The notes beneath the pieces were generated by a model. The model was not told the DNA's origin, searched no databases, and saw nothing but the letters and a program-made list of their open reading frames with translations. From Polyangiaceae bacterium (GTDB taxonomy: Bacteria > Myxococcota_A > Polyangia > Polyangiales > Polyangiaceae): a stretch of 37,449 bases of DNA. The stretch is from positions 1-37,449 of the forward strand of contig JAJDAH010000028.1 in assembly GCA_029261965.1 (NCBI GenBank), given 5' to 3'. Below are positions 3,916 through 26,242 of this stretch, piece after piece; the first letter of the stretch is position 1; every line of letters starts with the position of its first letter. A program made the position numbers and the translations under genes.

Positions 3916-3950
3916 TCCCCGGGGAACGAATGGACGAGGTGAGATAGCCC

Positions 3951-4901
3951 ATGGGGGTTCTCGACGTTTTCAAGCGGGCTGCGGCGCCGGTGTCGCGACG
4001 TTTGTCGCGTCCGAAACCCAAGAAGGAAGAGCTCTTCGACGAGCAGTTCCAGCGAAAGCTCGAGATGCTCGCCGTGGTGAGTCGTCGAGTGTTCGCCGGC
4101 CGCATGAGGGCGGAGCGTCGCAGCAAGAAGAAGGGCAGTGGCATCGAGTTCGCGGACCATCGCGACTACGTGCCCGGCGACGACTTTCGTTACGTCGACT
4201 GGGGGGTGTACCAACGCTTCGACCGGCTGCTGATTCGACTCTTCGAGGAAGAAGAAGACCTCAGCATCTATTTCATCGTCGATTGCTCGACCTCGATGGG
4301 TTTCGGAAGCTCGCGCAAGTTCGACTACGCACGGAAGCTCGCCGCCGCGCTCGCCTACGTCGGGCTCGCCAATCTCGACCGCGTGACGATCGTCGGGGTG
4401 AACGACGAAGTCGTTGCTCGCATGCCGCCGACGCGAGGCAAGGGGCGCATCTTCAAGGTGTTCCAGTTCCTCGACGGCCTCGAGCCGAACGGCACGACCA
4501 ATCTCCGCGACACCCTCAAGACCTTCGTCGCCCAGCACAAGAGGCGGGGGCTCGCGGTGCTCATCAGCGATCTCTACGACCCTGCCGGGTTCGAAGGAGG
4601 CATCAACGTCCTTCGGTACAACAAGTTCGAGCCTTTCGTTCTGCATATCGTCGACCCCGCCGAGGCTCGTCCCCAGCTCAAGGGAGACATCCGTCTGTAC
4701 GACTGTGAAACCGGCGACGAGCGCGAGGTCACCATCACCAAGAAGGTCCTCGAGAAGATGGAGGAGGCGTGGCAGGAGTATCAGAACGAGATTGAGCGGT
4801 TCTGCACCACGCGGCAGGTTCCCTACTTCTCCGCGGATCTCGACGTTCCCTTCGACGAGCTGATCCTTCGCGTATTTCGCCGCGGAGGCTTCCTGCGCTG
4901 A
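3951..4901 (+). CDS. DUF58 protein with vWA-like MIDAS fold
   Basis: 316 aa; an aggtgag SD lies about 10 nt before ATG 3951. The DUF58 signature RDYVPGDDFRYVDW is at residues 71-84, followed by an intact MIDAS motif DCSTS (D111, S113, S115), so divalent metal binding is likely. There is no membrane segment, so it is cytoplasmic, as is common for DUF58 proteins encoded after moxR. In known clusters the DUF58 protein is the direct partner of MoxR. Its stop overlaps the next start by one base (TGATG at 4899-4903), indicating coupled translation. Confidence 0.95.
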   Translation: MGVLDVFKRAAAPVSRRLSRPKPKKEELFDEQFQRKLEMLAVVSRRVFAGRMRAERRSKKKGSGIEFADHRDYVPGDDFRYVDWGVYQRFDRLLIRLFEEEEDLSIYFIVDCSTSMGFGSSRKFDYARKLAAALAYVGLANLDRVTIVGVNDEVVARMPPTRGKGRIFKVFQFLDGLEPNGTTNLRDTLKTFVAQHKRRGLAVLISDLYDPAGFEGGINVLRYNKFEPFVLHIVDPAEARPQLKGDIRLYDCETGDEREVTITKKVLEKMEEAWQEYQNEIERFCTTRQVPYFSADLDVPFDELILRVFRRGGFLR

Positions 4902-6775
4902 TGTTCCTCGCCGGCCTTCCCATCGCGACGCTGCTCACGGTCGCCGGCATCGCGGGCGGTCTGACGCTCGTTTTCTACATCCTCAAGCTCAAGCGGCGTC
5001 CCATCGCGGTGCCGTTTTCACACATTTGGGAGCGGATCCTCCGAGACAAGGAAGCGACGAGCCTCTTCAGTCAGCTCAAACGACTGTTGAGCCTGCTGCT
5101 GCAGCTTCTCTTGCTGGCGCTTCTGATTTTTTCTCTCGGCGATCCCCGCCTTTCGAGGAACCTGGTCGAGGGGCGGAACGTCGTCGTGCTCGTCGATGCG
5201 AGCGCGTCGATGAAGGCGACCGACGTGTTGCCGAGTCGACTCGACGTCGCCAAGGGAAAGGTGCGCGAGCTCATTCGCGGGCTCGGCGGCTCGGATCGAA
5301 TGCTGGTGGCGCAAATGGACGCCTCGCTCGTACCGCTGTCGACGATGACGAGCGAGATCCCGGATCTCGAGCTCGCCGTCGATTCGCTCCGGGCGTCGGA
5401 TACTCGCGCCGACTTCTCCCGTGGGCTCGAGTTTGCCCTCGACAGCTTGAGCGACTTGCCCCGCCCGGAGATCGTCGTCGTGAGCGACGGCGCGCTCGGC
5501 GAGGTGGAGGAGGGGACGGACCTCGGCGACACCAAGCTCAGCTACCTCCGCGTCGGCGAGTCGGGCAAGAACGTGGCGGTCACTGGATTTTCGGTTCGAC
5601 GCTACCCGCTGGACAAAGCCCGGTACGAGGTGATGCTCGAGGTCACCAATACCAACGACGAGCCCGTCGACGTCGAGCTGACGCTGCTCGGCGATGGCGA
5701 GGTCGTCGACGTGTCGCGTCTCAACCTCGGTCCGAGCGAGAGACTGCCGCGTTTCTACGCCGACCTGGCGGGTGCGAGCCGCACCCTAGAGGCGACGATC
5801 GCCTTGGCCGACGGGAGCAAGGACAGTCTTCCGGCGGACGACCACGCCTACGCGCTCATGCCTGAACGGCGACGCGCCAGCGTTCTGGTGGTGAGCGTCG
5901 GCAACACCTATCTCGAAGCCGCGCTTCTGCTCGACGAGTACCTCGACGTCGAGATCATTCATCCGTCCCGGTATCCCGCCGAGGGCAACTTCGACGTCAC
6001 GATCTTCGATGGCGTGGCCCCGCCGTTGGCCTCCGGCACGGGTAGCGCGCTCTACCTCGACGTGCCCGACGAAGGCGCGCCAGTCGGGCGAGGCCGCGCG
6101 CTCGAGCTCTTCGGGTTCGATACCTGGGACAAGAAGACCGGAATCCTGCGCTGGATAGCGATGGAGAATATCCAGATCGCTTCGGGGTATCGCCTGGACG
6201 TCGAGAAGGCGGACCACGTGCTCGGGCGCGCCGGTGGCCATCCGATCCTGGTCAGCGGGCGACGAGATGGGCGCCGCTTCGTCGCCACGGGTTTCGACCC
6301 GCGTGACAGCGACATGGTGTTGCGGGTGGCCTGGCCGCTCTTCGTGCTGAACACCATCAACGATTTCATCGAAGAGGACACCGGCTACATCTCGTCGTAC
6401 CGCACGGGCGACGTGTGGCGAGTGCCGGCGCCGAGCACCGCCGAGGTGGCCACCCTGACCGATCCGTCGGGCAACGAACGGAAGGTCCCAGTCAAAGACG
6501 GTCGCGCGGTGTACCTCGGCGAGCAAGCCGGGTTCTACAAGCTCCAGGTCGGTGGCGACGAGGAGACCGAGACGATGTTCGCGGCCAATCTCGCGGATCT
6601 CGCCGAGAGCCGCATCGAGCCTCTCGACGAGCTTTCGGTCGGTGGAAAGGAAGCCGGCGAGGTCGTGGGCTTCACCGCCGGCGTGCGTCGAGAGATCTGG
6701 CTCTACCTCCTGCTTGCGGTGCTCTTGCTGTCGACCGTCGAATGGATCACCTATCACCGGCGGGTGACCGTATGA
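4901..6775 (+). CDS. BatA-like membrane protein with vWA domain
   Basis: 624 aa. The N-terminus matches the BatA N-terminal family (aerotolerance regulator N-term): membrane segment about 6-29, then KLKRRPIAVPFSHIWERIL, then a second segment about 61-80. A vWA domain follows with intact MIDAS DASAS (D99, S101, S103). Residues about 320-480 (RRASVLVVSVGNTYLEAALLL...) resemble the glutamine-amidotransferase-like region often seen in these proteins. A final membrane segment lies near 602-618. The vWA and middle domains are probably periplasmic. It is coupled upstream (TGATG) and downstream (ATGA). Bat genes were named for aerotolerance in Bacteroides; the role here is unknown. Confidence 0.93.
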   Translation: MFLAGLPIATLLTVAGIAGGLTLVFYILKLKRRPIAVPFSHIWERILRDKEATSLFSQLKRLLSLLLQLLLLALLIFSLGDPRLSRNLVEGRNVVVLVDASASMKATDVLPSRLDVAKGKVRELIRGLGGSDRMLVAQMDASLVPLSTMTSEIPDLELAVDSLRASDTRADFSRGLEFALDSLSDLPRPEIVVVSDGALGEVEEGTDLGDTKLSYLRVGESGKNVAVTGFSVRRYPLDKARYEVMLEVTNTNDEPVDVELTLLGDGEVVDVSRLNLGPSERLPRFYADLAGASRTLEATIALADGSKDSLPADDHAYALMPERRRASVLVVSVGNTYLEAALLLDEYLDVEIIHPSRYPAEGNFDVTIFDGVAPPLASGTGSALYLDVPDEGAPVGRGRALELFGFDTWDKKTGILRWIAMENIQIASGYRLDVEKADHVLGRAGGHPILVSGRRDGRRFVATGFDPRDSDMVLRVAWPLFVLNTINDFIEEDTGYISSYRTGDVWRVPAPSTAEVATLTDPSGNERKVPVKDGRAVYLGEQAGFYKLQVGGDEETETMFAANLADLAESRIEPLDELSVGGKEAGEVVGFTAGVRREIWLYLLLAVLLLSTVEWITYHRRVTV

Positions 6776-10925: not shown

Positions 10926-13220
10926 ATGCGGCGGACTCGGTTCGGGCGGATCACGGCAACCGCAGCGAGTGCGATTGCAGTCGCGGCGCTCGTCGGTGCG
11001 ACGAGCTGCGGCGGTGGCAAGGGCAAAGGGGATTCTGCCGGCGCCGACTGTTCGGATGCTCGCCAGTTTCTAGCGGAGCAGGCGTGGGGCCCGATTTTCG
11101 GTGGCGTGTGTCTCGAATGTCACGGGCCTGGCGGTTTGGCTTCAGAGGACAACGCCAAATTCCGTCTTTTGCCTCCGGAGTACCCGGGCTTTCTGGACGC
11201 CAACCTCGAGCATCTGCGCGGCTTCGTGAAGTACGAGTACGACGGCACGCCGATGATTCTGATGAAGCCGCTCGGGCAGCTCGAGCACGGTGGCGGCACG
11301 AAGCTTCAGGACGGCAGCCCCGAAATGGAGCTCTTGCAGGAGCTGGTGACGCAGCTTCAAGCTTCTGGCGATGGTGCCTGCGCCCCATCGGCGACCGCGG
11401 CGAGCTTCGAAGACGTCGTTCTACTCGATCCTGTCGCGACCTACCGCAAGGCGAGTCTTCATCTGGTGGGCCGCCTGCCGAATCGCGGCGAGATCGACCG
11501 GCTGCTCTCCGAGGGCGAAGCCGCGTTGCCGGGCTTGCTCGACGCCCTGATGACCGAGCCGGGTTTCTACGATCGCCTAAAGGACATCTTCAACGATCTA
11601 CTGCTGACCAACCGCTACTACCGCTCGAACTCGGTCGGCCTGCTCGGAACCGAAGAGTTTCCAGAATCCGATCTGGCTTGGTTCGAGAATCTCGATAACG
11701 ATACGCAGAATCGAGTCGGTCGCGCCGTGGGCGCCGAGCCCCTCGACCTCATCGCTCACATCGTGCGAAACGACCGACCGTTCTCGGAAATTCTGACGGC
11801 CAACTACACCGTCATGAACCCGGACTCCGCACGAATCTACAACGCCGACATCAACTTTGCCGATCCGAACGACCTGAACGAATACCACGAGGGGAAGATT
11901 CGCACCTTCGCCAACGGTCAACTCGTCGAGTATCCGCATGCCGGTGTGTTGACGTCGCCGATGTTTTTGAATCGCTTCCCGACGACGCCGACCAACCGCA
12001 GCCGCCACCGCGCGCGGATGGTTCTTCAACACTTTCTCGGCACGGACATTCTCGCGGTCGCCGAACGGCCGCTCGACCCGACGAGGGCCACGGCGTTCTC
12101 GAATCCGACCCGCGAAGACAGTGCGTGCGCGGTTTGTCACTCGATCATCGACCCCATCGCCGGCGCCTTCCAGAAGTTCGACGAGAACGACATGGAAGAG
12201 TTCGACCCGGCGCAAGAATGGCACCCGGAGATGTTCGCTCCGGGGTTCAAAGACGACGTGATGCAGACGACGGATTTTCCGCAGGCGCCGTCGTGGTTGG
12301 GCCAGCGCCTCGCCGCCGACGACAGGTTCCCGTTGGCCACCGTTTACACCGTCTTCGGAGCCCTGACGGGTCAAAAGCCCGCGCTCTTCCCCAAGGACGC
12401 GGCGAGCGCGACCTTCGCCGACGATCTCGCGGCATGGCAGGCGCAGGATGCGACGCTTCGAGCGATTGCCATCGAGTTCGAGGCGCAGAACCTGAACCTC
12501 AAAACCGCGATCCGACAGGTGATCCTCTCACCTTACTACCGTGCGAAGAACGCGACGGGCCCGCTCGAACCCGGTCGCGCCGCTCAGCTCGGCAACGTCG
12601 GCACGGGAATGCTGTCGACTCCGGAGCTTCTGGATCGAAAGATCCTCGCTATCGTCGGACTCAAGTGGGCTCGATCCTACGACTACAACGCGAGCATGCT
12701 GCGGAACGACTACCAGATCCTTTACGGCGGCATCGACAGCGACGCGGTGACCGAGCGTCTCACCGATCCGAACGGCGTGATGTCGAACGTGGTTTGGAGG
12801 ATGGCGAACGAAGTCTCGTGCGTTTCGACGGCCTACGATTTCACGAAGCCGGCCGAGGAGAGAACGCTGTTCCCGGACGTTCAGCCCACCGACACCCCAA
12901 CCAACGCTGAAGATCGAATTCGCAGCAACATCAAGTATCTGCACGCCTTGGTGCTCGGGGAAACTCTCGAAGACGGTCACCCCGAGCTCGAGCGCACCTA
13001 CCGACTGTTTTTCGACACTTGGCAGGAGGGCAGCGCGCTCGTGGCGGCGGACCAGGAGCCGTCTCGGATCGTCTACAGCTGTCGCGGTCGGGAGAACCCG
13101 ATCACCGACCAAGAGCTTCCCGATGAAGTCAAAGTAGAAGACGACGACGACTACGCAGTTCGTTCGTGGATGGCGGTGATGACGTACCTCCTGTCGGACT
13201 ACAAGTTCATCTACGAGTGA
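10926..13220 (+). CDS. Exported DUF1592/DUF1588-like protein with two CxxCH motifs
   Basis: 764 aa. I chose ATG 10926 because a strong ggaggag SD lies 5 nt upstream; an ATG at 10884 is in frame but lacks one. The signal peptide is followed by GATSC-GGG, so it is probably a lipoprotein cut before C28, although Ala at -3 is not ideal. CLECH (62-66) sits in a short planctomycete-cytochrome-like segment. CAVCHSIIDPIAGAFQKFDEND (from C401) is the characteristic DUF1588 motif, and the preceding LNRFPTTPTNRSRHRARMV matches DUF1592/1588. Near residue 530, LKTAIRQVILSPYYRAK resembles DUF1585. Two c-type haem sites are possible. Such proteins are typically encoded beside DUF1501/DUF1552 partners, as here. 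Biochemical role unknown. Confidence 0.88.
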   Translation: MRRTRFGRITATAASAIAVAALVGATSCGGGKGKGDSAGADCSDARQFLAEQAWGPIFGGVCLECHGPGGLASEDNAKFRLLPPEYPGFLDANLEHLRGFVKYEYDGTPMILMKPLGQLEHGGGTKLQDGSPEMELLQELVTQLQASGDGACAPSATAASFEDVVLLDPVATYRKASLHLVGRLPNRGEIDRLLSEGEAALPGLLDALMTEPGFYDRLKDIFNDLLLTNRYYRSNSVGLLGTEEFPESDLAWFENLDNDTQNRVGRAVGAEPLDLIAHIVRNDRPFSEILTANYTVMNPDSARIYNADINFADPNDLNEYHEGKIRTFANGQLVEYPHAGVLTSPMFLNRFPTTPTNRSRHRARMVLQHFLGTDILAVAERPLDPTRATAFSNPTREDSACAVCHSIIDPIAGAFQKFDENDMEEFDPAQEWHPEMFAPGFKDDVMQTTDFPQAPSWLGQRLAADDRFPLATVYTVFGALTGQKPALFPKDAASATFADDLAAWQAQDATLRAIAIEFEAQNLNLKTAIRQVILSPYYRAKNATGPLEPGRAAQLGNVGTGMLSTPELLDRKILAIVGLKWARSYDYNASMLRNDYQILYGGIDSDAVTERLTDPNGVMSNVVWRMANEVSCVSTAYDFTKPAEERTLFPDVQPTDTPTNAEDRIRSNIKYLHALVLGETLEDGHPELERTYRLFFDTWQEGSALVAADQEPSRIVYSCRGRENPITDQELPDEVKVEDDDDYAVRSWMAVMTYLLSDYKFIYE

Positions 13221-13234
13221 GCGGAGACGAGCCA

Positions 13235-14560
13235 ATGAAACGAAGAAAGTTCCTTCAGCTTGCCGGTCTGAGCGGACTGGCGCTCACCGTGCCCACAGCG
13301 AAGCGAGTCGAAGCCCAAGAGGGCCTCTACGGTGGCCCTTACTACGTGCTCATCACCGCATCCGGCGGGTGGGATCCGCGGTTCATGTTCGACCCGACGA
13401 CGGACGCCGAACAGAACCGGTACTACGCCGTCCAAGGCGCCGCCGGCGCCATTCCGTACGCGGATTGGCCGATCGACGAGGCGGCATTCAACATCGACGT
13501 CGGCATCGGCTACTCGAGCTATTTGATGACGAACGGAGCGTTCCTCGCCAAGCACGGCAACCGCTTGACCGTCATCAACGGCGTGGACACGTCGACGAAC
13601 AACCACGAGGCGGGCAAACGCACGATGATGTCGGGAAGCATTCCCGGCAAGTATCCGGCAATCGGCGCGTTGCTGGCTGCCGCGCGTGCCCCGAACAAAC
13701 CCATCGGTTTCATTTCCAGCGGCGGTTACGACGCGACCGCTGGCCTCGTTCCGCTCGCTCGAGTCGCCAGTGCGGATTCGATGCGGGATCTGGCGTTCCC
13801 GAACGAAGTCGATCCGGGCAACATCGACAACACCGACACGTACCATCTGGCGCAAACCGTGGGTCGAATTCGCGGTGCCCAGCGCGAGCGGTTGCAGGCG
13901 CTGCGCGACGCCCAGCACCTGCCACGCCTAAACCGGAGCATGGGCGCGTTGCACTTGGCGCGCGAGACGGACTCCGAGCTGTCTCGGCTCGCGCTCCCCG
14001 CGGATCTGGCGGACATCACCGTGGGTGGACAGCTGAACGATCTCGAACGACTCATGCAGCAGAGTCAACTCGCCGTTGCTGGGTTCAAGAGCGGCCTGGC
14101 GGTCAGCGCCAGCTTGAGCTTGGGCGGCTTCGACAGTCACGCGAACCACGATCGAGACCAGCCCCGTCAGATCGCCAAGCTCCTCTACGGCGTCGATTTC
14201 CTGATGACCGAGGCGGCGGCTGCCGGGATCGACAACAACATGTATGTCGTGGTGGTTTCCGATTTCGCCCGCGGGCCGCGCTACAACGGAACCAACTCGA
14301 ACGCGGGCAAGGACCACTGGCCGGTGACGAGCATGTTCGCGATGGGACCGAACATCCCGGGAGGCAGGTTGGTTGGCGCAACCACCTCGGACCAACGTGC
14401 ACGTTTCGTCGACCCGGCGACGATGACGCCGGCCGATTCGGGTGTGAAGATTACGCCTGGCACGGTGCATCGCGCGCTTCGCCGAGTGATGGGCATCGAC
14501 GGTCACGAGCTGGCTCAGCGGTACCCCGTTCTCGGCGAAGACTTGCCGCTGTTCGGCTGA
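13235..14560 (+). CDS. Tat-exported DUF1501-family protein
   Basis: 441 aa. ATG 13235 is preceded by ggag 8 nt upstream and gives a clean twin-arginine signal, KRRKFLQLAG, with likely cleavage after VEA (residue 27). The family signature is clear: LGGFDSHANHDRD, then VVVVSDFARGPRYNGTN and GKDHWPVTSMFAMGPNIPGG. DUF1501 has an alkaline-phosphatase/sulfatase-like fold, though its substrate is not established. It follows the CxxCH protein by 14 nt, a pairing common in Planctomycetes and Myxococcota, so the two probably work together in the periplasm or at the outer membrane. Tat export implies folding, possibly with bound metal, before export. Confidence 0.92.
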   Translation: MKRRKFLQLAGLSGLALTVPTAKRVEAQEGLYGGPYYVLITASGGWDPRFMFDPTTDAEQNRYYAVQGAAGAIPYADWPIDEAAFNIDVGIGYSSYLMTNGAFLAKHGNRLTVINGVDTSTNNHEAGKRTMMSGSIPGKYPAIGALLAAARAPNKPIGFISSGGYDATAGLVPLARVASADSMRDLAFPNEVDPGNIDNTDTYHLAQTVGRIRGAQRERLQALRDAQHLPRLNRSMGALHLARETDSELSRLALPADLADITVGGQLNDLERLMQQSQLAVAGFKSGLAVSASLSLGGFDSHANHDRDQPRQIAKLLYGVDFLMTEAAAAGIDNNMYVVVVSDFARGPRYNGTNSNAGKDHWPVTSMFAMGPNIPGGRLVGATTSDQRARFVDPATMTPADSGVKITPGTVHRALRRVMGIDGHELAQRYPVLGEDLPLFG

Positions 14561-14749: not shown

Positions 14750-17700
14750 ATGAAAAAGCGGGCTTGGCTGGGCGCACTGGGGGCGAGACTGAAACTAGGC
14801 GTCGTGGCGACGGGGATAGCCTCGGTCGGGGTGGCGACGCTCACGACATCGACGGCGCTCGGCCAAGAGCCGGCGCTCTGTCGGTCGACGGATCCGTCCG
14901 ACCATCCCGACTCGTCGAAGCCCTACTTCATGCTGGTCGTGGACACGTCCGGCAGCATGCTGGCGTGCACGAATCCGACCACCAACTACCCCAACCCGTG
15001 TCCGGCTCCCGAGAACACCGCCCTATGGAACTCGTGCGGCATGGTGCCGTCCCGCCTCAACGACGCCAAGTGCGCGCTCCGCCAGACGGTTCAAGCCTTC
15101 GGCGGTGAGGTCAACTTTGGCCTGGCGACCTTCGCGGTGGAGCTCTTCGGGTGCAATACGGGCGCGACGGCATGCAACCCGAGCTGTAACGATCCAAGCG
15201 ATCCAACAGGATCCGACGATTCCGGCTGCGTCGCCGCTGGCGTGGGTACGACGGGAGAGTTCTATTCGGCGAGCGGTTGCTCGGTGCGTGGGCTCCCGGG
15301 TCAAACCGGCAGCTCCTGCGGGAGCACCCCGGACTGCAACGCGGGTGCTGGTCCGCCCGCGCCCAACCTCGCGGAGAACTGGGCGAACGGTGGTCGCGTC
15401 GTCGTCCCGATGCAGGTGCAACCGACCTGGGGACCGCCCCCGCCACCCTCGAACGTCGACGAGGTCTTGCGATGGTTCGACAACGACTGCAGCGATTCCA
15501 AAGAGCTGTTCGCGATGGGTGGCACGCCCATCCATCAGGCGCTCACGTCCATCAACCAGTACATGCGTGCCGGCTGGGACGCCGACTGGGATGAAGCGTT
15601 CTATTGTCCCGGGAACACCGCGTATCAGTACACGGTGCCGCAGGGACAGGCTTCGCCGCCGGCGGTGACTTTCGACGGTACGAGCCCACTCAACGCGCTC
15701 GATCGGCCCTGTCGTGAGGTGCAGATCATCTTGGTGACCGATGGCGCCCCGACGTGTGGCAGCAGCGTGGCGCTGTCTTCGGGCGCGGCCGCAGCGCTTT
15801 TCGCGGGGATTCAAGCGCCGGGAGGCGGCCCGACCTTCAACATTCGCACTAACGTCATCGCCTTCGCGGGCTCCAGTCTCGCGAACGCGACGACCATCGC
15901 CACCGCTGGTGGCGGCGTCGCGCTGCAGGCACAAAACGAGGTTCAGCTGAGCCTCGCCATGTCCCAGATCATCAGTGGCGCCATCCGCCCCGAGGTCTGC
16001 GACAACACCGACAACAACTGCAACGGCTGCACCGACGAGGGTTTCCAAGTCTATTGCAACCGCGGAAAGGTCGCCGCTCCGCTGTCGGCGCCGCCGCAGC
16101 CCGGAGAATGCTGTGATTGGTCGAACACCGCCCAGCGCGACGCCTGCATCGCCGCGTTTCAGGCGAGCATCGGGCCGGGCAACCCGAGCGGTGACCAATG
16201 GCTCCTGCCGTGTTTCACCGACCCGGGTGCGGCCAACCCCGAGCAGCGCTGGCTCTGCAACAATCCGCTCGAGATCTGCGACGACGCCGACAACAACTGC
16301 GACGCGACGTTCACGCTTCCCCCGGGGACGGATGCCATCGACGAGGGCTTCAACAAGTGCCCGAACTGTCCGGTGCCGGAGACCTGCGACGGCAACGACC
16401 AGAACTGCGACGCGATCATCGACAACGCCCCGATGAGCAGCGTTCCGTTCAGCGTTTGCCCCGGCGGGTGCCAGTCTTTCCCGGAGATTTGCGACGGCTG
16501 CGACAACGACTGCAACGGCATCGCGGACGACGGCGTCCCGCCCATCGCGTGCGGATTCCCGGCGCCGCCGAATTGCGACGGCCAGCGCCGATGCGTTTCG
16601 ACGCCCGTGGCCAACCCGGGCGACTGCGTGCCCGGTGGCGGCACGTTCGACATGTGCGACTTCATGCCGACGGGCGAGTTCTGCGACGGTCTGGACAACG
16701 ACTGTAACGGCGTCATCGACGACGGTGTTCCCCCCACCGCGTGCGAGGATCCGGGCAATCCGGGGCGCGTCTACCAGGGCACCTTCCCGCAGAGCCAATG
16801 CATCATGGGTTCGATGCCGTGCTTGGGCACGTGCACCGGGTTCGTGGGGCCCTCGCCGGAATCGTGCAACGGCACGGACAACGATTGCGACGGCGTCGTC
16901 GACGGCACCATCCCCGGGTTCCCTGGGAGCGCCGGGACGGCGTGTGTGACCAGCGCCACCTGCCCGGGCGCCCAAGTGTGTCTGCCGCGACCGATCTCTG
17001 GAAACATGGTCTGCGCCATCCCGCCGCCCGGGACCGGCAACACCTGTGGCACGACAGCGGGCATCTGCACCCAGGGCACCACCGCGTGCGTTGGCGGCAT
17101 GATCGTCTGCAGCGGCGGCACGCAGCCCGGCAACGAGGTGTGCAACGGCCTCGACGACGACTGTGACGGCCAGACCGACGAAGGACTGACCGACGCGCCG
17201 GCGGACAGCCGATGCTGGAGCAACCCGGGCGCCACCTGCACCGACCCGATGACCGGCGTCATGTGGGATCCGCCGCCCGGCGCCGGATGCCGCGACACCG
17301 GAGGTCTGACGGTGCCCTGCCAGGTGGGCACCCTGCTCTGCGGCGGCGGCTCGGGTTGGTTCTGCCAGGGGGACATCAACCCCGGTGCGGAGATTTGTGA
17401 CGGCGTCGACAACGACTGCGACGGAACAGTCGACGACGGCGTCCCGCCGCCCGGGACGACCTGCGGTACCGACGTCGGCGAATGCACCTTCGGCGCGCTC
17501 GTCTGCACGGCCGGCGTGACCTCGTGCGTGGGGGGCCAAGGGCCGACCACCGAGTTCTGCGACGGTGACGACGACGATTGCGACGGTGTGGTCGACGGCA
17601 CGATTCCGCCGAGCGGCCCCACGAGCTGCACGACGAACACGGACTGCGCGATCAACGAGCGGTGTTTGCAGAGAAGTGGCCCCGCGGATCTCGTTTGCGC

Positions 17701-20518
17701 CCTTCCGCCCACCGGCTCGGGCACGGTTTGCGGCACCGGCGTCGGCGAATGCACCAACGGCACCAACGAGTGCGTCGGTGGCACCTTTGTCTGCACCGGC
17801 GGAACCGGTTCCCAACCCGAGGTGTGTGACGGTCTGGACAACGACTGCGACGGCGCCATCGACGACGGCATGCTCGCGGACGCGCCGGCCAGTCTCGGGT
17901 GCTGGCAGCTTCCGGGCAGCTGTTGCTCCGAAGTCGGCCTGCAGTGGTGTCCGCCGGCTGGGGCGACCTGCACGGATATCGGGACCCTGACGGCACCTTG
18001 CTCCTCCGGCACGCTGGTCTGCCAGGGCGGCGCTGGGTGGGCGTGCCAAGGCGGGCGTGTGCCGGCCCCGGAGGTCTGCGACGGCGTCGACAACGACTGC
18101 GCCAACGGCGCGGACGACGGCAATCCGGGCGGAGGCGCTCAGTGCGGAACGAGCGATGTCGGCGAATGCTCCTTCGGCAGCGAGCAGTGCGTCGGCGGCA
18201 GCATCGTTTGCGTTGGCGAGGTCGGGCCGAGCCCGGAAGTCTGCGACGACGACGACGACAACTGCGACGGCGTCGACGACGGTACCGTCGTCGGCGGAAC
18301 CCCCTGCACCTCGAACACCGACTGCACCGTCGGTAACGAGATCTGCTTCCCGTCGGCGCTCGGCGGCATGGTTTGCGCGGAGCCCACGGCCGGTGTGGGC
18401 AACCCCTGCGGGCTGGACACCGGGCAATGCCAGAAGGGCACGACCTTGTGCGTCGGTGGCAATCTCATCTGTCAGGGCGGCACACCGCCGAACCCCGAGA
18501 GCTGCAACGGTCTCGACGACGACTGCGACGGATTCACCGACGAGCCGGCGGAGCTCACGGACGCGCCGGCAGACCCGAACTGCTGGTCGGGCGCGGGGAC
18601 GACGTGCAGCCACTCGAACGCCATGTGGGATCCACCGGCCGGCGCCACGTGCACTGGTCTCGGCACCCTCTCGACCCCACCGTGTCAAACCGGCGGGCTC
18701 CGCTGCGACGGCGCCTCCGGGTGGTCGTGTGTGGGTGACGTCGGTCCGACCGGCGAGATCTGCGACGGCGTCGACAACAACTGCGACGGCACCGCGGACG
18801 AAGGCAACCCCGGTGGGGGAGCCGTTTGCGGGAGCGACGTCGGAGAGTGCATGACCGGCATGACCGTCTGCGTCGGTGGTGTTCTCGACTGCCAGGGCGA
18901 AACCGGCCCGCAGCCGGAAATCTGCGACGGCCTGGACAACGACTGCAACGGCGCCATCGACAACGGGATCCCGATCGGCGGGACCTGTCAGGTGCCCTAC
19001 GACACGGTCGCTTACCCCGGAGATCGGACGCAGGGACAGTGCCGACCGGGTGTCAACGAGTGTGACGGCATGGGCGGTCTCAACTGCGTTGGCGGCATCG
19101 GCCCGACCGCGGAAATTTGCGACGGCAAGGACAACGATTGCGACGGCCTGACCGACGAGCCCGGGCCCCAGCCCGACGGTGTCGACGGTACGGTCAACCC
19201 ACTCGATTCGACCCAGACCATCGGAGACGCCTGCGGCGTCGACGTGGGCGAGTGCAAGCAAGGTCAGCTGGTCTGCGACCAGTCGCTCGGCCAGTTCGTT
19301 TGCGAGGGCTCGATCGGTCCGAACCCCGAGCGGTGTGATTGCGCCGACAACGACTGCGACGGCGAGGTCGACGAGGACCCCGAGGCGACCGAGCCGCAGC
19401 TCTGCTCGCCCGGCAAGACGTGTGTGGCGACTGCGGACTCCTGCCAGTGCGCGCCGCCGTGCGGCTCGGGCGAGTTCCCGTGCCCGACCGGCACCACCTG
19501 CGAAACCGTGACGCGCAGCGGCACGACGATGAACGCCGGTAACTTCTGCATCGACACCAGCACGTGCAGCGACTGCGAAGCGGACACGGTGTTCGACCCG
19601 CAGGGCGGCGCGGTCTGCGGCCCGGCGGGCACGACCGGCATCGACGGCAAACCCACGCCGGTGTGCGTGTGCCAGGGTCAATTCGGCTGCCAAAGCCCGT
19701 GCTTCGGTATCGAGTGCCCCGACCCAGGTCAGCAATGCGTTCCGAGCGGGCCCGCAACGGGGACCTGCCGCAACCAGAACAATTGCAACTTCTTCGGCTG
19801 CATCGCCGGGGAGGCCTGTGACAACGGCGCGTGCGTCGCCGATCCGTGTGAGCCGAACCCGTGCGCGCCGGAACAGGTCTGCAAGCCCAACTCCACGTTC
19901 GACGACAACGACTGCGTGGCTTCCTGTGCGGGCGTGACCTGCCCGGCAGGGGAGGAGTGCTCCGAGGGCAGCTGCGTGCCGACGGGGTGCGGGGTGGACT
20001 GCGGCGTCGGCATGTTCTGTCAGCAAGACGCCGACGGCGGCTTTGCCTGTGGACCCAGCCGATGCATGGGCGCTGACGGCGGGCTTGCCTGCTCGAACGG
20101 CGCGTTCTGCGACCCGGCGACCGGAGCCTGCGGCAACGATCCGTGTACGGCGGTGAAGTGCCCGGCGGGTCAAGAATGCCAGGCCGGCGAATGTGTCGAG
20201 GGCGAGGTAGACGCGGGTCCAGGTACCGGCGGAGCCGGCGGCGTCACCGGCACCGGGGGCTCCGGCAACACCGGCAACACCATGGGCCAGTCGGACGCTG
20301 GACGCGACGCGAGCGCTGGTACGGGTGGCACGACCACCAATCAGGATCGTCGGGTCTTCGGACTGGCTACCGGCGGCGGCGGTTGCGCCTGCCGTGCGAC
20401 GTCCTCGAGCGGTCCGGCACCCATCGGCGGCGTGCTCCTGGCTGGACTGGTTCTCGGAGCCTTTGCTGTCAGGAGGCGGCGAACCCTCCGGGCGGGGCTC
20501 CGAAAGGGGGTGCTCTGA
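14750..20518 (+). CDS. Giant vWA / MopE-repeat surface protein with MYXO-CTERM tail
   Basis: 1922 aa. It has an N-terminal signal peptide (MKKRAW..., hydrophobic to about residue 35, likely cleaved after ALG or LGQ). A vWA domain with intact MIDAS DTSGS (65-69) and VTDGAP (about 329-334) runs to about residue 410. From residue 415 to about 1545 there are about 17 copies of the E-x-C-(D/N)-G-x-D-N-D-C-D-G-x-x-D motif (Pfam MopE-type metal-binding motif). The Asp spacing resembles a calcium-binding loop, so Ca2+ is as plausible as copper. Residues about 1550-1815 are rich in other cysteine modules, followed by a Gly/Thr/Asn linker. The end (1875-1922) is MYXO-CTERM-like: GGGGCACRA, a membrane segment about 1893-1907, then RRRR with an unusually long 11-residue basic tail. 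Such tails are sorted to the cell surface by myxosortases. The stop overlaps the next start. Confidence 0.95.
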   Translation: MKKRAWLGALGARLKLGVVATGIASVGVATLTTSTALGQEPALCRSTDPSDHPDSSKPYFMLVVDTSGSMLACTNPTTNYPNPCPAPENTALWNSCGMVPSRLNDAKCALRQTVQAFGGEVNFGLATFAVELFGCNTGATACNPSCNDPSDPTGSDDSGCVAAGVGTTGEFYSASGCSVRGLPGQTGSSCGSTPDCNAGAGPPAPNLAENWANGGRVVVPMQVQPTWGPPPPPSNVDEVLRWFDNDCSDSKELFAMGGTPIHQALTSINQYMRAGWDADWDEAFYCPGNTAYQYTVPQGQASPPAVTFDGTSPLNALDRPCREVQIILVTDGAPTCGSSVALSSGAAAALFAGIQAPGGGPTFNIRTNVIAFAGSSLANATTIATAGGGVALQAQNEVQLSLAMSQIISGAIRPEVCDNTDNNCNGCTDEGFQVYCNRGKVAAPLSAPPQPGECCDWSNTAQRDACIAAFQASIGPGNPSGDQWLLPCFTDPGAANPEQRWLCNNPLEICDDADNNCDATFTLPPGTDAIDEGFNKCPNCPVPETCDGNDQNCDAIIDNAPMSSVPFSVCPGGCQSFPEICDGCDNDCNGIADDGVPPIACGFPAPPNCDGQRRCVSTPVANPGDCVPGGGTFDMCDFMPTGEFCDGLDNDCNGVIDDGVPPTACEDPGNPGRVYQGTFPQSQCIMGSMPCLGTCTGFVGPSPESCNGTDNDCDGVVDGTIPGFPGSAGTACVTSATCPGAQVCLPRPISGNMVCAIPPPGTGNTCGTTAGICTQGTTACVGGMIVCSGGTQPGNEVCNGLDDDCDGQTDEGLTDAPADSRCWSNPGATCTDPMTGVMWDPPPGAGCRDTGGLTVPCQVGTLLCGGGSGWFCQGDINPGAEICDGVDNDCDGTVDDGVPPPGTTCGTDVGECTFGALVCTAGVTSCVGGQGPTTEFCDGDDDDCDGVVDGTIPPSGPTSCTTNTDCAINERCLQRSGPADLVCALPPTGSGTVCGTGVGECTNGTNECVGGTFVCTGGTGSQPEVCDGLDNDCDGAIDDGMLADAPASLGCWQLPGSCCSEVGLQWCPPAGATCTDIGTLTAPCSSGTLVCQGGAGWACQGGRVPAPEVCDGVDNDCANGADDGNPGGGAQCGTSDVGECSFGSEQCVGGSIVCVGEVGPSPEVCDDDDDNCDGVDDGTVVGGTPCTSNTDCTVGNEICFPSALGGMVCAEPTAGVGNPCGLDTGQCQKGTTLCVGGNLICQGGTPPNPESCNGLDDDCDGFTDEPAELTDAPADPNCWSGAGTTCSHSNAMWDPPAGATCTGLGTLSTPPCQTGGLRCDGASGWSCVGDVGPTGEICDGVDNNCDGTADEGNPGGGAVCGSDVGECMTGMTVCVGGVLDCQGETGPQPEICDGLDNDCNGAIDNGIPIGGTCQVPYDTVAYPGDRTQGQCRPGVNECDGMGGLNCVGGIGPTAEICDGKDNDCDGLTDEPGPQPDGVDGTVNPLDSTQTIGDACGVDVGECKQGQLVCDQSLGQFVCEGSIGPNPERCDCADNDCDGEVDEDPEATEPQLCSPGKTCVATADSCQCAPPCGSGEFPCPTGTTCETVTRSGTTMNAGNFCIDTSTCSDCEADTVFDPQGGAVCGPAGTTGIDGKPTPVCVCQGQFGCQSPCFGIECPDPGQQCVPSGPATGTCRNQNNCNFFGCIAGEACDNGACVADPCEPNPCAPEQVCKPNSTFDDNDCVASCAGVTCPAGEECSEGSCVPTGCGVDCGVGMFCQQDADGGFACGPSRCMGADGGLACSNGAFCDPATGACGNDPCTAVKCPAGQECQAGECVEGEVDAGPGTGGAGGVTGTGGSGNTGNTMGQSDAGRDASAGTGGTTTNQDRRVFGLATGGGGCACRATSSSGPAPIGGVLLAGLVLGAFAVRRRRTLRAGLRKGVL
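16859..18990 (+). repeat. Higher-order tandem repeat inside the giant MopE protein, period about 228 codons
   Basis: Three motif types alternate in fixed order. A type-1 motif, followed by a DAPAD-like CW segment and a WDPPAGATC-like segment, starts at 17135, 17819 and 18497 (spacings 684 and 678 nt). Within each copy the third motif starts 417-420 nt later (17552, 18236, 18917). A partial leading copy starts with a type-3 motif at 16859, 276 nt before the first full copy. All spacings are multiples of three, so the array grew by in-frame duplication of a three-motif block. Confidence 0.8.
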
Positions 20519-23500
20519 TGAGCACCCTGAAGCCGCTGGCGGTCATCGCCGTCGCCACCCTCGGACTGTTCGGGATCGCCGGATGCAATACGGCGGCATT
20601 CTGTTTCGCCAACTGCGAGGACCCGTTTGGCGAGGCCGACGCCGGCGATTCCGGCACCGGCCAACAGGACAGCGGCCCGCTGTTCCAGGATTCCGGATCG
20701 GACGCGTGCATCGGCATCTTCTGTGGCAACCAGCCGGACACCGGAACTGGCGGCCAATGCGTCGAGACGAACGCTGGCGTCGAGATTTGCGACAACGTCG
20801 ACAACGACTGCGATGGCCTCGTCGACGAACCCGACGACATCGACTTCAACCTGCCGCGGAACTGCGGCAACTGTGCGACCAACTGCTCGCTTCTGACCGA
20901 CAACGTCGACCAGCCGACGTGCTCGCCGCCCGCGAACAATCTCGGCGCCGCACCGGGCACTTGCGACTACAACAACTGCGCCCAGGACTTTTACGACGTC
21001 GACGGGGATCGTTCGAACGGTTGCGAGTACTTCTGCCCCTTCAACCCGAATGGCACGAACACGAACGATCCGGGCGGGGCCGATGGTTGCGCCAAGGACG
21101 ACGACTGCGACGGAGAAGTCGACGAGGACGTCAACACCTGCGACGACGTGCAGAACTGCGGACGCTGCGGCAAGCAGTGCGTGATCGCGAACGGAACTGC
21201 GGTTTGCACGACGACCGCGACGGGTGGCGATGCCTGCACCGAGGCCAACACCCGATGCGAAGTCGACCAGTGCGACCCGGGTTTCTTCGACGTCGACGGG
21301 TCGCCGGACAATGGCTGTGAGTACGAGTGCCCGGTCGCCGTGCCCTCCGCGGAGGTCTGCGACGGAATCGACAACGACTGCGACGCGAGGATCGACAACC
21401 TCGACGCGGACCTGACGATGAACGATCCCGACGTCGGGCAGGCGTGTTTCGGCGGCACCGACGGCGAGTGCGCGGACTCGAGCCACGAAGGCGTGCAAAA
21501 GTGCATCGGCGGCGCGATCTCCTGCTGCGACAAGGATTCCGGCGACACCGGCGCGGACCTGCGAAACGGGGAGTGCAGCGGTACCGTGCCTCCGTTCGTC
21601 GTCCGTCCGGGTGACCTTCAAGAGGTCTGCAACAACAAGGATGACGACTGCGACGGGAGCGTCGACGACAACCCCGTGGACGAGGGAGCGGTCTGTGGCT
21701 CTTCGGTCGGCGATTGCCAGGTCGGTACGGTCCTTTGCGTTTCCGGCAGCCTCAATTGTGCTGGGGCCACGGGTCCCCAGGCGGATGTCTGCGACGGACA
21801 GGACAACGATTGCGACGGCATCATCGACGGCACGATTCCCGCCGGGGTACTTCCGATCAGCTGCAACTCCGACGCGGATTGCGCTGGCGAGGCGCCCGCG
21901 GTTTCTTGCAAACCCCGGTCGTCGAACCCCGCCCAGCGCGTCTGCGTCCAGCACGCCGACGGCGTCGGGGATCCCACCACCGGCGTGCCACTAGCGTGCA
22001 ATGTGCCGCCAGCGGCGCCGCCGGGTGCTACCCAGCCATGTCAGGCGGGCGTTTCGGCGTGTCTCAACGGTGTGCCCGCTTGCCCCGGGTCGATCCTCCC
22101 GCAGCAGGGGACCGATGAATGCTTCGAGGACAGCAACTGCGATGGCACGCTCACCGGTCAGTCGGGCCTCAGCAATTCCGATCCGCTCAACTGCGGCACC
22201 TGCGGCAACGACTGCAATTCGCTCGGCGCCGGCGTCGTGTGGGCTTGCAACGCCGGCGTCTGCCAGCCGAATGGTTGCGCCCAGGGTTTCATCGACTGCG
22301 ATGGAAACGCCAGCGATTGCGAGACTGCCTGCACGTTCTCCTCCTCCTCTGAACTCTGCAACAACATCGACGACGACTGCGACTGCTTCGTGGACGCCGC
22401 GGACCCCGAGGGCGTCACGCTGCAGAATCCGGTTCAGGCTTGCGGAGTCAGCCCGGCCGCCACCGATCCGGGATGCACGACGGGCGTCGTCGTCGCTTGT
22501 GTCGGCGGAGGCTTCACCTGCACGTTCCCCGGCGGCTACTGCACGACCGGAGACTGCAGCACCAGCGTAGACGTTTGCGACGGCAGCGGTCTCGACAACA
22601 ACTGCGACGGGGTCGCGGACGAGACGTTCGTGCCGCCGATTCGTGTGCAAGGTTTCCTCGGACAAGCCTGTTTCAGCGATGACGGGCTGCCAGCGCCGGG
22701 ACACGGGCCCTGCCGGACGACCGGCAACTTCGTTTGCGATGGGCCCGGGACCAACACGCAGTGCAACGCGACGATCGATCTCACCCAGGCGAATCCGGAG
22801 CTCTGCGACGGCATCGAAAACGACTGTGACGGCCTCATCGACGCCGCGGATCCGGACCTGCCGACCGACGACACGCGAGTCAACCAGCCGTGTTTCGGTG
22901 GCACGCAGGGCGTCTGCGCCGATCCGTCGAATGCGGGAACCACCGTTTGCACGACCGGCGTCGTGGTCTGTCAGGGACCGAACGTGGTCAATCCCGGCGA
23001 CCTGCTCGAAGTCTGTGACGGGCTCGACAACGACTGCGATGGGCTGGTCGACGATGCCGACCCCGACCTTCCGGGCGACGACCCGCGGGTCGGCCAAACG
23101 TGTTTCGGCGGAACCACCGGCCAGTGCATCTTCCCCGCCCACGCCGGCTCCAACACGTGCGTTTCCGGGGCCATCACGTGCGCCGGCCCGAACATCTTGA
23201 TGCCGTTCGACAACGTCGAGGTTTGCGACAACATCGACAACGATTGCGACGGCAACGTCGACAACAACCTGACCGACACGGGGGGCGTTTGCGACGTGCC
23301 GCCCGCCGTGACGCCGAACGCGGCGTGCCCTGGAGCCACCAATCCGTGCTCCTCCGGCAACTTCATTTGCGGCGCTGGCGGCTCGCTCCAGTGCGGCGGC
23401 TCGGTGACCGCGCCGCCAGGCACCCCGGACTCGTGCTGCGACGACACCAACTGCAACGGCATTCTCGAGAACGTTCCGGACTTCCAGAACGACCCGCTGA

Positions 23501-24945
23501 ACTGCGGGGGTTGCGGGGTGAATTGCAACGCCATCGACCCCACCGGCCACGGCGTCTGGTCATGCGTCACCGGCGGGTGCGTGCGAACGGGTTGCGACGG
23601 CGGGTTCATCGACTGTGACGCCAACGGAAACGACTGCGAAACTGCCTGCACGTTCACGTCGAGCACCGAGCTCTGCAACGGCGTCGACGACAACTGCAAT
23701 TGCCAGGTGGACACGGACATTCTTCCCGCCAACATCCCGTCCACCGTCCAGGTGTGCGGTGTCGGGGCCGCCGCGACCGAGGCGGGCTGCATCTCGACCG
23801 AGACCGGGGGCAACGTCGTCGTGGCGTGCACCGCCGGTGCGTGGGCATGCACTTTCCCCGCCGGATACTGCGGGAGTGGCAGCCCGCCATCGTGTGCGTC
23901 GACCTCGGACACCTGCGACGGCATCGACAACAACTGCAACGGCACGTCGGACGAAGCCTTCCGCTTCCCGGCGAAGCCCGTCGGCGGGTTGACGACTCCT
24001 TGCGCGACCGACGACGGCCAGCCGCCCCCCGGGGACGGCGCGTGTCGTGGCATGGGTGTTTTCGTTTGCAACATCGCCGGGGACGACACGACGTGCAACG
24101 CGACGTTCGATCCCAGCGGCGCTGGTCCCGAGCTCTGTGACGGCCTCGACAACGACTGCGACAGCCTCATCGACGAGCCTTTCAGCAATCCCGGCACCCC
24201 GCCGGTGACCGTGCCCCCCATCACGAACTCGTTCGTGCGCCCAGACGTCGTCCGGGTGGCCGCGAGCCTGTGGATGTACCAGTACGAAGCGTCGCGGCCC
24301 AACGCGACGGTCACCAGCCCAGGAACGGGCAACGGTTATCACACTTCGGCTCCGGCCGGCACGACCCTCGACGCGACGGTCTCGTGCTCGGTGGCGGGCA
24401 ACGTGCCGTGGTTCAACGTCACCCCCGACGAAGTCACCCAGACTTGCCTGGCGGCGGGCGGGCGCATCTGCACCATGCCGGAGTGGCGCTCGATGTGCCA
24501 AGCCACGGCGTCGTGCACCCGCGGTTACGCCCCGCGAACCGGCGCACCCGCCAACTGCACGCAGAACGGCATCTACCCGGCCGGGCCGACTCGCGTTTGC
24601 AACGTCGGACCCTACGATTTCGATACGAGCATCGGCGGGATCCAAGACGGCCTGCTACCCACCGGGTACATGGGCGGGGATCCCGATCGGCCGAGCCTCA
24701 TCAATTGTGGATCCGACTGGGGCGGCCTGCAGGGCAATGCGGCTGGCACGCGCCTCTTCGACACCCTCGGCAATCTGCGCGAAATCACGCAAAACGGCGC
24801 CAACTACACCCTCATGGGCGGCGCCTTCAACAACGCGACGGAGGACGGCGCTGCGTGTGACTTCACGTTCTTCAACGTGCCCGTCGACTTCCAGCTGCTA
24901 GATACCGGGTACCGTTGTTGCTTCGACTCGAACCCGAGTCCTTAG
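20518..24945 (+). CDS. MopE-repeat lipoprotein with C-terminal SUMF1/FGE-like fold
   Basis: 1475 aa. The start is ATG 20518, overlapping the upstream stop (TGATG). A longer open frame back to 20143 lies inside the previous gene. The signal peptide ends in a good lipobox, IAGC (C23), with Asn at +2. Some 15 MopE-type motifs lie between about residues 85 and 1225, mixed with LNCGTCGNDC and GFIDCDGNASDCE cysteine modules common in myxobacterial surface proteins. Residues about 1240-1475 look like a formylglycine-generating-enzyme/sulfatase-modifying-factor fold: WMYQYEASRPNA, PWFNVTPDEVTQTCLAAGGRICTMPEWRSMC, LGNLREITQNG, LMGGAFNN, DTGYRCCF. The MPEW, GNLRE and GYRCC elements match positions conserved in that family. 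Catalytic activity is unproven, so it may be a binding fold. Confidence 0.92.
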   Translation: MSTLKPLAVIAVATLGLFGIAGCNTAAFCFANCEDPFGEADAGDSGTGQQDSGPLFQDSGSDACIGIFCGNQPDTGTGGQCVETNAGVEICDNVDNDCDGLVDEPDDIDFNLPRNCGNCATNCSLLTDNVDQPTCSPPANNLGAAPGTCDYNNCAQDFYDVDGDRSNGCEYFCPFNPNGTNTNDPGGADGCAKDDDCDGEVDEDVNTCDDVQNCGRCGKQCVIANGTAVCTTTATGGDACTEANTRCEVDQCDPGFFDVDGSPDNGCEYECPVAVPSAEVCDGIDNDCDARIDNLDADLTMNDPDVGQACFGGTDGECADSSHEGVQKCIGGAISCCDKDSGDTGADLRNGECSGTVPPFVVRPGDLQEVCNNKDDDCDGSVDDNPVDEGAVCGSSVGDCQVGTVLCVSGSLNCAGATGPQADVCDGQDNDCDGIIDGTIPAGVLPISCNSDADCAGEAPAVSCKPRSSNPAQRVCVQHADGVGDPTTGVPLACNVPPAAPPGATQPCQAGVSACLNGVPACPGSILPQQGTDECFEDSNCDGTLTGQSGLSNSDPLNCGTCGNDCNSLGAGVVWACNAGVCQPNGCAQGFIDCDGNASDCETACTFSSSSELCNNIDDDCDCFVDAADPEGVTLQNPVQACGVSPAATDPGCTTGVVVACVGGGFTCTFPGGYCTTGDCSTSVDVCDGSGLDNNCDGVADETFVPPIRVQGFLGQACFSDDGLPAPGHGPCRTTGNFVCDGPGTNTQCNATIDLTQANPELCDGIENDCDGLIDAADPDLPTDDTRVNQPCFGGTQGVCADPSNAGTTVCTTGVVVCQGPNVVNPGDLLEVCDGLDNDCDGLVDDADPDLPGDDPRVGQTCFGGTTGQCIFPAHAGSNTCVSGAITCAGPNILMPFDNVEVCDNIDNDCDGNVDNNLTDTGGVCDVPPAVTPNAACPGATNPCSSGNFICGAGGSLQCGGSVTAPPGTPDSCCDDTNCNGILENVPDFQNDPLNCGGCGVNCNAIDPTGHGVWSCVTGGCVRTGCDGGFIDCDANGNDCETACTFTSSTELCNGVDDNCNCQVDTDILPANIPSTVQVCGVGAAATEAGCISTETGGNVVVACTAGAWACTFPAGYCGSGSPPSCASTSDTCDGIDNNCNGTSDEAFRFPAKPVGGLTTPCATDDGQPPPGDGACRGMGVFVCNIAGDDTTCNATFDPSGAGPELCDGLDNDCDSLIDEPFSNPGTPPVTVPPITNSFVRPDVVRVAASLWMYQYEASRPNATVTSPGTGNGYHTSAPAGTTLDATVSCSVAGNVPWFNVTPDEVTQTCLAAGGRICTMPEWRSMCQATASCTRGYAPRTGAPANCTQNGIYPAGPTRVCNVGPYDFDTSIGGIQDGLLPTGYMGGDPDRPSLINCGSDWGGLQGNAAGTRLFDTLGNLREITQNGANYTLMGGAFNNATEDGAACDFTFFNVPVDFQLLDTGYRCCFDSNPSP
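22111..24182 (+). repeat. Large internal duplication in the MopE-SUMF1 lipoprotein
   Basis: A block of about 250 codons at 22111-22860 recurs, diverged, at 23425-24182. Matching landmarks include DPLNCGTCGNDCN / DPLNCGGCGVNCN, GFIDCDGNASDCETACTF / GFIDCDANGNDCETACTF, ELCNNIDDDCDCFVD / ELCNGVDDNCNCQVD, and TCTFPGGYC / ACTFPAGYC. The offset is 1314-1317 nt. The spacer between the blocks holds two shorter ADPDLP...CFGGT repeats. Confidence 0.8.
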
Positions 24946-24958
24946 CAGAGGAGATCCC

Positions 24959-26242
24959 ATGCGCTTCGATTCGCCCCTCCGCGCGGCCCTGGTCCTGGCG
25001 GGGCTTTCGCTCGTGCACGCGTCCGGGTGCGGCAGCAGCAGCACGCAGGCGGACGGGGCCGGTGGCTCTGGGGGTGGGACCGCGAGCACCGGAGGCGGTC
25101 CGGGCATGGATGCCGGAACGAGCGGTTTTGGTGGTGCGGTCTTTGGTTGTCAGGGGGATGGGGAATGTGGGCTCGGGCAGATGTGCTCGGCGGCGCGCGT
25201 GTGCGTTCCTTTGGGGGGCTGCGGCGCGAACGAGGATTGTGCTCCGGGGGAGCTCTGCAGCGGAACGCAGTCCTGTATCCCCATGGGGACGTGCGCCGCC
25301 GACGTGGATTGCGGAATGGGCTTCCTTTGCGACACGGCCAGCGGAACGTGTGCACCGGGTGGTGGGTGCGGCGCCGAGGAGTTTCAGACCGAAGCGGTAG
25401 CGCCGAACATGCTGCTCGTTCTCGATCGCTCCTGCAGCATGACTAACGGCACCCCCGCGACGAAGTGGGAGCTTGCCGTCGACGCCATCAACAGCTTGAC
25501 GACGACCTTCAGCGGTCAAATCCGTTTCGGGTTGACGCTTTTTCCCGATACGGAGAATCCGAACTGCGACCAGGGCGCGCCCGCGGTTTTCGTCGGGCCA
25601 GGCAACGAGATGGCGATCCAGGCGATACTGACGGCGGCGCTCGTGAGGGCGGATCCCAACTTTCCCAAGGGGCCGTGCATCACGAACATCACCTCCGCGA
25701 TGACTCAGGCGAGCATGGAGCCTGCGTTCAACGACGCCACTCGACCGAACTACGCCGTGCTCATCACCGACGGCAAGCAATTCGGCTGCATGCAGAACGG
25801 TGGTGACGCGATGACGACCCAGGTCATCGGCAACATGCTGTCGGTCGGCGTCTCGACCTACGTGGTCGGGTTCGGGAGTGGCGTAGACCCGGCGCAACTC
25901 AACATCTTCGCGGACGCGGGCGGCGTACCGCGCAACGACCCCACCACTCGATACTATCAAGCCGACGACGCGGTCACGCTGCAGATGGCGCTCGACACGA
26001 TCGCCACCACGAGCATCGGCTGCACCCTCGCCCTCGGAGAGGCTCCGCCGAACGGCGACGAGCTCTTCGTCTTCTTCGAGGACCAGCCCTTGTCTCGCGA
26101 TCCCAGTCACATGGAAGGGTGGGATTTCGATCCGAGCACCAATCAGGTCACCTTCTACGGGATGGCTTGCGACGCGCTCAAGAGCGGGATGGTTGCGGAT
26201 GTGGATGTCGTTTTCGGCTGCAACGTGCCCACTCCGATGTAG
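24959..26242 (+). CDS. vWA-domain lipoprotein with N-terminal cysteine modules
   Basis: 427 aa, 13 nt after the previous stop, with gaggag as SD. The signal peptide ends in VHASGC-GSSS (C24). The lipobox is imperfect because of Ala at -3, but the Ser/Gly-rich tether that follows is typical of lipoproteins. Residues about 60-140 hold four short C-x(5-6)-C modules of the type DGECGLGQMCSAARVCVP. A vWA domain follows with intact MIDAS DRSCS (D156, S158, S160), an unusual Cys inside the motif, and VLITDGKQFG downstream. It is the third gene of the surface operon, and its role is probably linked to the two MopE proteins. Ligand unknown. Confidence 0.92.
   Translation: MRFDSPLRAALVLAGLSLVHASGCGSSSTQADGAGGSGGGTASTGGGPGMDAGTSGFGGAVFGCQGDGECGLGQMCSAARVCVPLGGCGANEDCAPGELCSGTQSCIPMGTCAADVDCGMGFLCDTASGTCAPGGGCGAEEFQTEAVAPNMLLVLDRSCSMTNGTPATKWELAVDAINSLTTTFSGQIRFGLTLFPDTENPNCDQGAPAVFVGPGNEMAIQAILTAALVRADPNFPKGPCITNITSAMTQASMEPAFNDATRPNYAVLITDGKQFGCMQNGGDAMTTQVIGNMLSVGVSTYVVGFGSGVDPAQLNIFADAGGVPRNDPTTRYYQADDAVTLQMALDTIATTSIGCTLALGEAPPNGDELFVFFEDQPLSRDPSHMEGWDFDPSTNQVTFYGMACDALKSGMVADVDVVFGCNVPTPM

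Follow-up and report, generated by a model that had tools for sequence, protein, structure and literature searches.

The three consecutive genes at positions 14750 to 26242 of the window, by which we mean the whole analyzed stretch of 37,449 nucleotides from a Polyangiaceae bacterium, raise the question of whether neighboring genes for exported, cysteine-rich proteins specify a single assembly on the cell surface. The initial annotation had proposed exactly this for three genes in a row with more than 3,800 residues in total, and the open reading frame coordinates agree with its description: the TGA of the first gene (P1) overlaps the ATG start of the second (P2) at position 20518 in the sequence TGATG, 13 nt separate the end of P2 (24945) from the start of the third gene (P3, 24959), and the products add up to 3,824 residues (1922 + 1475 + 427) with cysteine contents of 9.4%, 9.3% and 4.9%, respectively. 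The features are collected in Table 1. The window is one entire contig of a 480-contig, 9.6-Mb genome. Relatives in the same family include, among the matches listed, the metagenome-assembled genome ADurb.Bin207 (contig MWCO01000042.1, G014:C42), and a relative in the same order, G048, which we take to be Sandaracinus amylolyticus, is assembled as a single contig. Elsewhere in the window, genes for a MoxR ATPase, a DUF58 protein and a BatA-like vWA protein follow each other in a typical Bat-type cluster (2914-6775). An open frame of 1716 codons runs antisense to P1 on the minus strand (15023-20173) and is most likely not a gene but an effect of the high GC content of the coding strand.

Table 1. 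Coordinates of the predicted genes and protein regions in the window
Feature	Position	Strand	Basis
P1: signal peptide, vWA head with MIDAS, about 17 MopE repeats, Cys-rich tail, MYXO-CTERM anchor	14750..20518	+	1922 aa; PF11617 and TIGR03901 above cut-off; MIDAS conserved in alignment
P1 vWA head	14870..15979	+	Alignment of 24 sequences; phylum-wide profile matches
P1 MopE repeat array (putative stalk), with larger internal duplications	15998..19435	+	Strict motif 16 times; DNA repeat families
P1 MYXO-CTERM anchor	20375..20518	+	TIGR03901 23.5 bits, residues 1876-1911
P2: predicted lipoprotein, MopE array, SUMF1-like C-terminal head	20518..24945	+	1475 aa; PF11617; conserved partner of P1
P2 lipoprotein signal, lipobox GIAGC	20518..20589	+	Sequence; lipobox in 42/46 P2 relatives
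P2 MopE repeat array (putative stalk)	20788..24162	+	Strict motif 10 times, about 15 including degenerate copies
P2 SUMF1/C-type-lectin-fold head	24235..24942	+	PF03781 in 10/19 aligned members; predicted model, Z about 13-16
P3: CglB-like predicted vWA lipoprotein, adjacent, outside the conserved module	24959..26242	+	427 aa; PF00092, weak NF033757; not found in other pair loci

The annotated domains withstood closer inspection. Both proposed MIDAS sites are present: in P1 the residues DxSxS, T and D are 90-100% conserved over the 24 aligned sequences, and P3, which matches PF00092, carries DRSCS and LITDG. The differing anchors that had been described, one MYXO-CTERM and two lipid anchors, were also recovered, as the C-terminus of P1 scores 23.5 bits with TIGR03901 (cut-off 20) and the lipoboxes of P2 (FGIAGC) and P3 (VHASGC) are plausible by eye. 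A MYXO-CTERM-like tail, consisting of a C-terminal cysteine motif, a transmembrane helix and an arginine cluster, ends 45 of 46 P1 relatives, and in the P2 relatives a conserved [FY]C-type motif often comes after the N-terminal lipobox. According to a published model, MYXO-CTERM proteins receive a lipid, are cut by myxosortase and reach the cell surface through type II secretion (PMC11980579). P1 shares this anchor with TraA and other surface-sorted MYXO-CTERM proteins (PMC11980579), but differs from them in its vWA head, its MopE array and a lipoprotein partner with a matched array. An N-terminal vWA domain also occurs in the pilus-tip protein PilY1, for which a role in adhesion has been proposed (PMC9109919); in contrast to such pilus-tip adhesins, P1 terminates in a membrane anchor, and the C-terminal domain of PilY1 was not matched in Pfam.

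The C-terminal head of P2 had been described as a SUMF1-like fold. Taken alone, the head from the window stays below Pfam detection for PF03781, and the assignment was borne out by the family: PF03781 matches 10 of 19 aligned members (best 8.9e-11), and a predicted model of the head (pLDDT 74.6, pTM 0.79) aligns with CalU17 (Z 15.9), TvpA (14.9) and formylglycine-generating enzyme (FGE, about 14.5), the whole range, including Mtd, being about 13-16. The catalytic cysteine pair of FGE lies in the motif GGSW.C....C. In the alignment of P2 heads no cysteine follows within about ten residues of the invariant GG, so that for the P2 head, which shares its fold with FGE/SUMF1 and the variable proteins of diversity-generating retroelements, a role in binding is more probable than an enzymatic one. 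A retroelement origin of the head, which would call for an adjacent template repeat and a reverse transcriptase, gained no support from the window, in which no template repeat was found. In three genomes (L106, L107 and L177, i.e., G029:C35, G017:C283 and G016:C211) about 270-350 additional bases interrupt the SUMF1 head, each time at the same position near residue 210 of the domain.

The long middle parts of P1 and P2 consist of repeats that score well above the Pfam gathering cut-off of 27 bits for PF11617 (MopE), with 153.5 bits for P1 and 87.8 bits for P2. A strict motif, formulated as a regular expression, occurs 16 times in P1 and 10 times in P2 (26 in total; mean in shuffled sequences 0.01-0.04), and counting by eye with inclusion of degenerate copies gives about 17 and about 15, which reproduces the approximately 32 motifs first reported. 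What do these arrays bind? The initial annotation had named both calcium and copper as metals to be measured. The copper site of MopE* is formed by two histidines and a kynurenine (PMC3423442), whereas the strict motif cores of P1 and P2 are Asp/Asn/Cys loops devoid of His and Trp; copper binding is thus unsupported, and the likeness to the copper proteins MopE and CorA lies in the repeat motif. CorA and MopE* also bind structural calcium (PMC3912023). By analogy, and judging from their acidic character, the presumably disulfide-bonded loops in P1 and P2 probably bind calcium, which would stiffen the arrays into stalks. It is quite improbable, in our estimation, that the arrays instead serve as surface buffers or sensors for calcium or copper. 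Such a role would fit the naming of PF11617 after a copper protein and the acidic, cysteine-rich composition of the repeats, but it is at odds with the missing copper ligands and leaves both the matched repeat numbers described below and the conserved heads unexplained. No PDB chain matched the array profile by sequence, and neither Foldseek nor VIA-align among Foldseek's candidates yielded a solved structure for a MopE array; confidence in the predicted array model is moderate (pLDDT 71.5, pTM 0.45).

In order to see which of the three genes belong together, 59 relatives were searched with each of the three proteins, and the regions retrieved were re-annotated. P1 located directly upstream of P2 is a recurrent arrangement, sometimes with two copies of P1 or two P1-P2 pairs in tandem, and 4-nt overlaps between the two genes were found in four further loci (L095, L098, L100 and L130). 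Profile searches in 235 Myxococcota genomes returned 63 SUMF1 domains of the P2 type (at least 111 bits). For 37 of them, in 21 genomes, a P1-type vWA domain lies upstream in the same orientation at a distance of at most 9 kb, and several of the unpaired domains are situated within a few kb of a contig end. The only differing arrangement among the 63 is that in G096:C78, where the SUMF1 domain precedes the P1-type vWA domain. The anchors are mirrored as well: over 46 pairs, the MYXO-CTERM tail is C-terminal in P1 (45/46) and the lipobox N-terminal in P2 (42/46), so that the heads of both proteins are at the far ends. Combined with the MYXO-CTERM model (PMC11980579), these positions imply that both heads would be held off the membrane by a MopE stalk.

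Parts of a shared neighborhood recur around the pairs in G000 (C382, C304), G012, G013, G020, G022, G027 and G029, in the order gltX (identified by eye), a CPBP/Rce1-like protease, a lytic transglycosylase, a divergent WYL regulator, P1-P2 and a thymidine-phosphorylase-like gene. The protease gene (PF02517), a few genes upstream of P1 (L113:9015-10007, L102:1140-2093, L131:3472-4710), encodes a member of the myxosortase superfamily with MrtA-like scores of 65-83 bits (cut-off 200); it may serve as a dedicated processing enzyme or reflect mere housekeeping synteny. The divergent HTH-WYL-WCX protein encoded just upstream of P1 (L113:10741-11811, also in L097, L098, L102, L104 and L131) is a candidate regulator of the pair and is missing at the copy in the window. 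Two further P1-P2 pairs in G000 appear to be broken inside P1 at contig ends (C382 end, C304 start, C438 end, C447 end), probably as a result of the repeats. The pair in the window lies outside the shared neighborhood and follows a gene for a DUF1592/DUF1588 lipoprotein-like protein and a DUF1501 gene (10926-14560). These two were considered as parts of the module and rejected, as they do not accompany the other pair loci; the sole other case in which they occur near a pair is L145, where they are on the opposite strand and 8 kb away.

P3 presents a different picture. CglB, the gliding adhesin of Myxococcus xanthus, is essential for gliding and exposed at focal adhesions. PMC12282271 cites it as a vWA surface lipoprotein. 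Both P3 and the head of P1 resemble CglB in having a vWA domain. P3, however, reaches only 35.3 bits with the CglB profile NF033757, for which the curated equivalog cut-off is 200, and P1 differs from CglB in its long MopE stalk and its MYXO-CTERM anchor. The identification of P3 as CglB was consequently rejected, and so was a close relationship between the vWA domains of P3 and P1 (BLASTP E only 0.08). None of the 59 relatives holds a protein above the NF033757 cut-off, though weak CglB-like matches are present in nearly all of them. The closest relatives of P3 (50-55% identity) are encoded on other contigs that lack the pair, where they are solitary or, in G005, form a tandem pair. Conversely, no P3-like gene was found with a P3 profile in about 55 other fetched P2-head loci, some of them overlapping; the only two weak matches apparently fall on P1's own vWA domain. 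As judged from sequence and gene order, P3 is therefore a member of a scattered family of CglB-like vWA lipoproteins, lies outside the P1-P2 module and follows the pair here by chance. An assembly of all three proteins is therefore unsupported and was rejected on the basis of synteny: the short distance between P2 and P3 may allow co-transcription, but as the other pair loci examined lack a P3-like gene and the relatives of P3 are located elsewhere, we regard such an assembly as highly improbable. Of the three-gene order for which a survey of Myxococcota had been suggested, only the P1-P2 part is kept.

The second line of evidence for a joint function of P1 and P2 comes from the number of their repeats. 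A covariation was first suggested by the first dozen or so loci, and further loci were then fetched as a test. Counting was performed with best-domain limits for the domain ends, and the statistics exclude pair L178, whose P1 frame is interrupted. In 46 pairs from 33 genomes or records the P1/P2 counts range from 3/3 (found in G240) to 19/17 with a Spearman coefficient of 0.91, which amounts to 0.95 in the 30 loci that had no part in suggesting the covariation and to 0.90 (median) when one locus per genome is used; a looser motif over-counts and still gives 0.84. When the SUMF1-head tree was used for independent contrasts, r was 0.96, a coefficient whose own p-value is not to be read at face value, and 24 of 27 informative contrasts agreed in sign (p 5e-5). 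Seven loci contain P1 twice, with identical counts in the two genes. The residue spans of the arrays agree likewise (median ratio 1.11, interquartile range 1.00-1.14), with exceptions in some loci such as L214 and L216 (about 300 residues in P1 versus about 630 in P2), where length matches less well than count. By the strict motif the pair in the window is an outlier (16/10), and it moves closer when degenerate motifs are included. Metagenome assemblies may collapse repeats; an origin of the covariation in such collapse is nevertheless unlikely, given that the four pairs of the single-contig genome G048 alone have counts of 19/17, 13/10, 11/9 and 4/4.

How could such matching arise? One explanation would be that P1 and P2 are functionally linked and that each stalk crosses the same layer, be it capsule, S-layer or matrix, without mutual contact. 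This explanation, too, predicts arrays of equal length that expanded separately. We nonetheless consider it rather unlikely, as pairs within one genome extend from 4/4 to 19/17 and a shared envelope layer could dictate the length only if each pair were expressed in a different state. Within genomes the covariation is in fact particularly tight (centered r 0.98 for nine genomes with multiple pairs; partner-swap permutation p ~1e-4), which means that envelope thickness or any other factor acting on the genome as a whole is not the explanation. Another way to equal numbers, recombination that copies repeats between the neighboring homologous arrays in the absence of selection for length, appears improbable to us. 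P1 units are slightly nearer to the P2 units of their own locus (best match for 6%, about 2% expected), a small excess that may stem from shared ancestry and composition, but in expanded loci the units of P1 are more similar to each other (65-79% identity) than to those of P2 (51-72%). The arrays thus seemingly grew separately, and the repeats look as if they had expanded within each gene and had not been copied between genes. The simplest reading of the matched counts is selection for equal length or for one-to-one pairing. With order, strand and proximity kept throughout the phylum and repeat numbers covarying, the proposal of one assembly is, at the level of sequence, well supported for P1 and P2; P3, scattered and missing from the other pair loci, has no part in it.

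We therefore propose, with moderate confidence, that P1 and P2 form a dedicated two-protein module assembled in cis on the cell surface, with matched stalks side by side and a function as adhesin or receptor. The C-terminal MYXO-CTERM lipid anchor would fix P1 in the outer membrane and the N-terminal lipid would do so for P2, and the disulfide-bonded MopE arrays with their probably calcium-binding loops would each form a stalk that presents, opposite the anchor, a MIDAS-type vWA head on P1 and a head of SUMF1/C-type-lectin fold on P2. If the stalks stand side by side in one complex, their repeat numbers would be matched so that both heads reach the same height; alternatively, the matching may be imposed by stalks that pair repeat by repeat. 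Most likely the complex serves as an adhesin or receptor whose ligand would be located on a surface, in a matrix or on prey, with adhesion, motility, predation and matrix building as candidate roles. The pairing, order and overlap of the genes, the mirrored anchors, the MIDAS residues, the head folds and the covariation are observed; the physical complex, the exposure on the same leaflet, and the binding of calcium and of a ligand are inferred. A point against the model is that the lipid of P2 could reside in the inner leaflet of the outer membrane. More tentatively, repeat-by-repeat pairing might turn the two stalks into a phylum-wide two-chain molecular ruler, in which oppositely anchored, co-evolving chains carry a joint vWA and lectin-fold tip.

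We found no description of the P1-P2 gene pair in the literature searched. The component domains are already known, and what stands out is that two stalks encoded by different genes are matched in length. Such covariation of repeat number in the products of two genes is strong evidence, amenable to testing, that the proteins act jointly at a set length, and it provides a hypothesis for the function of many proteins of Myxococcota that are annotated with a "putative metal-binding motif".
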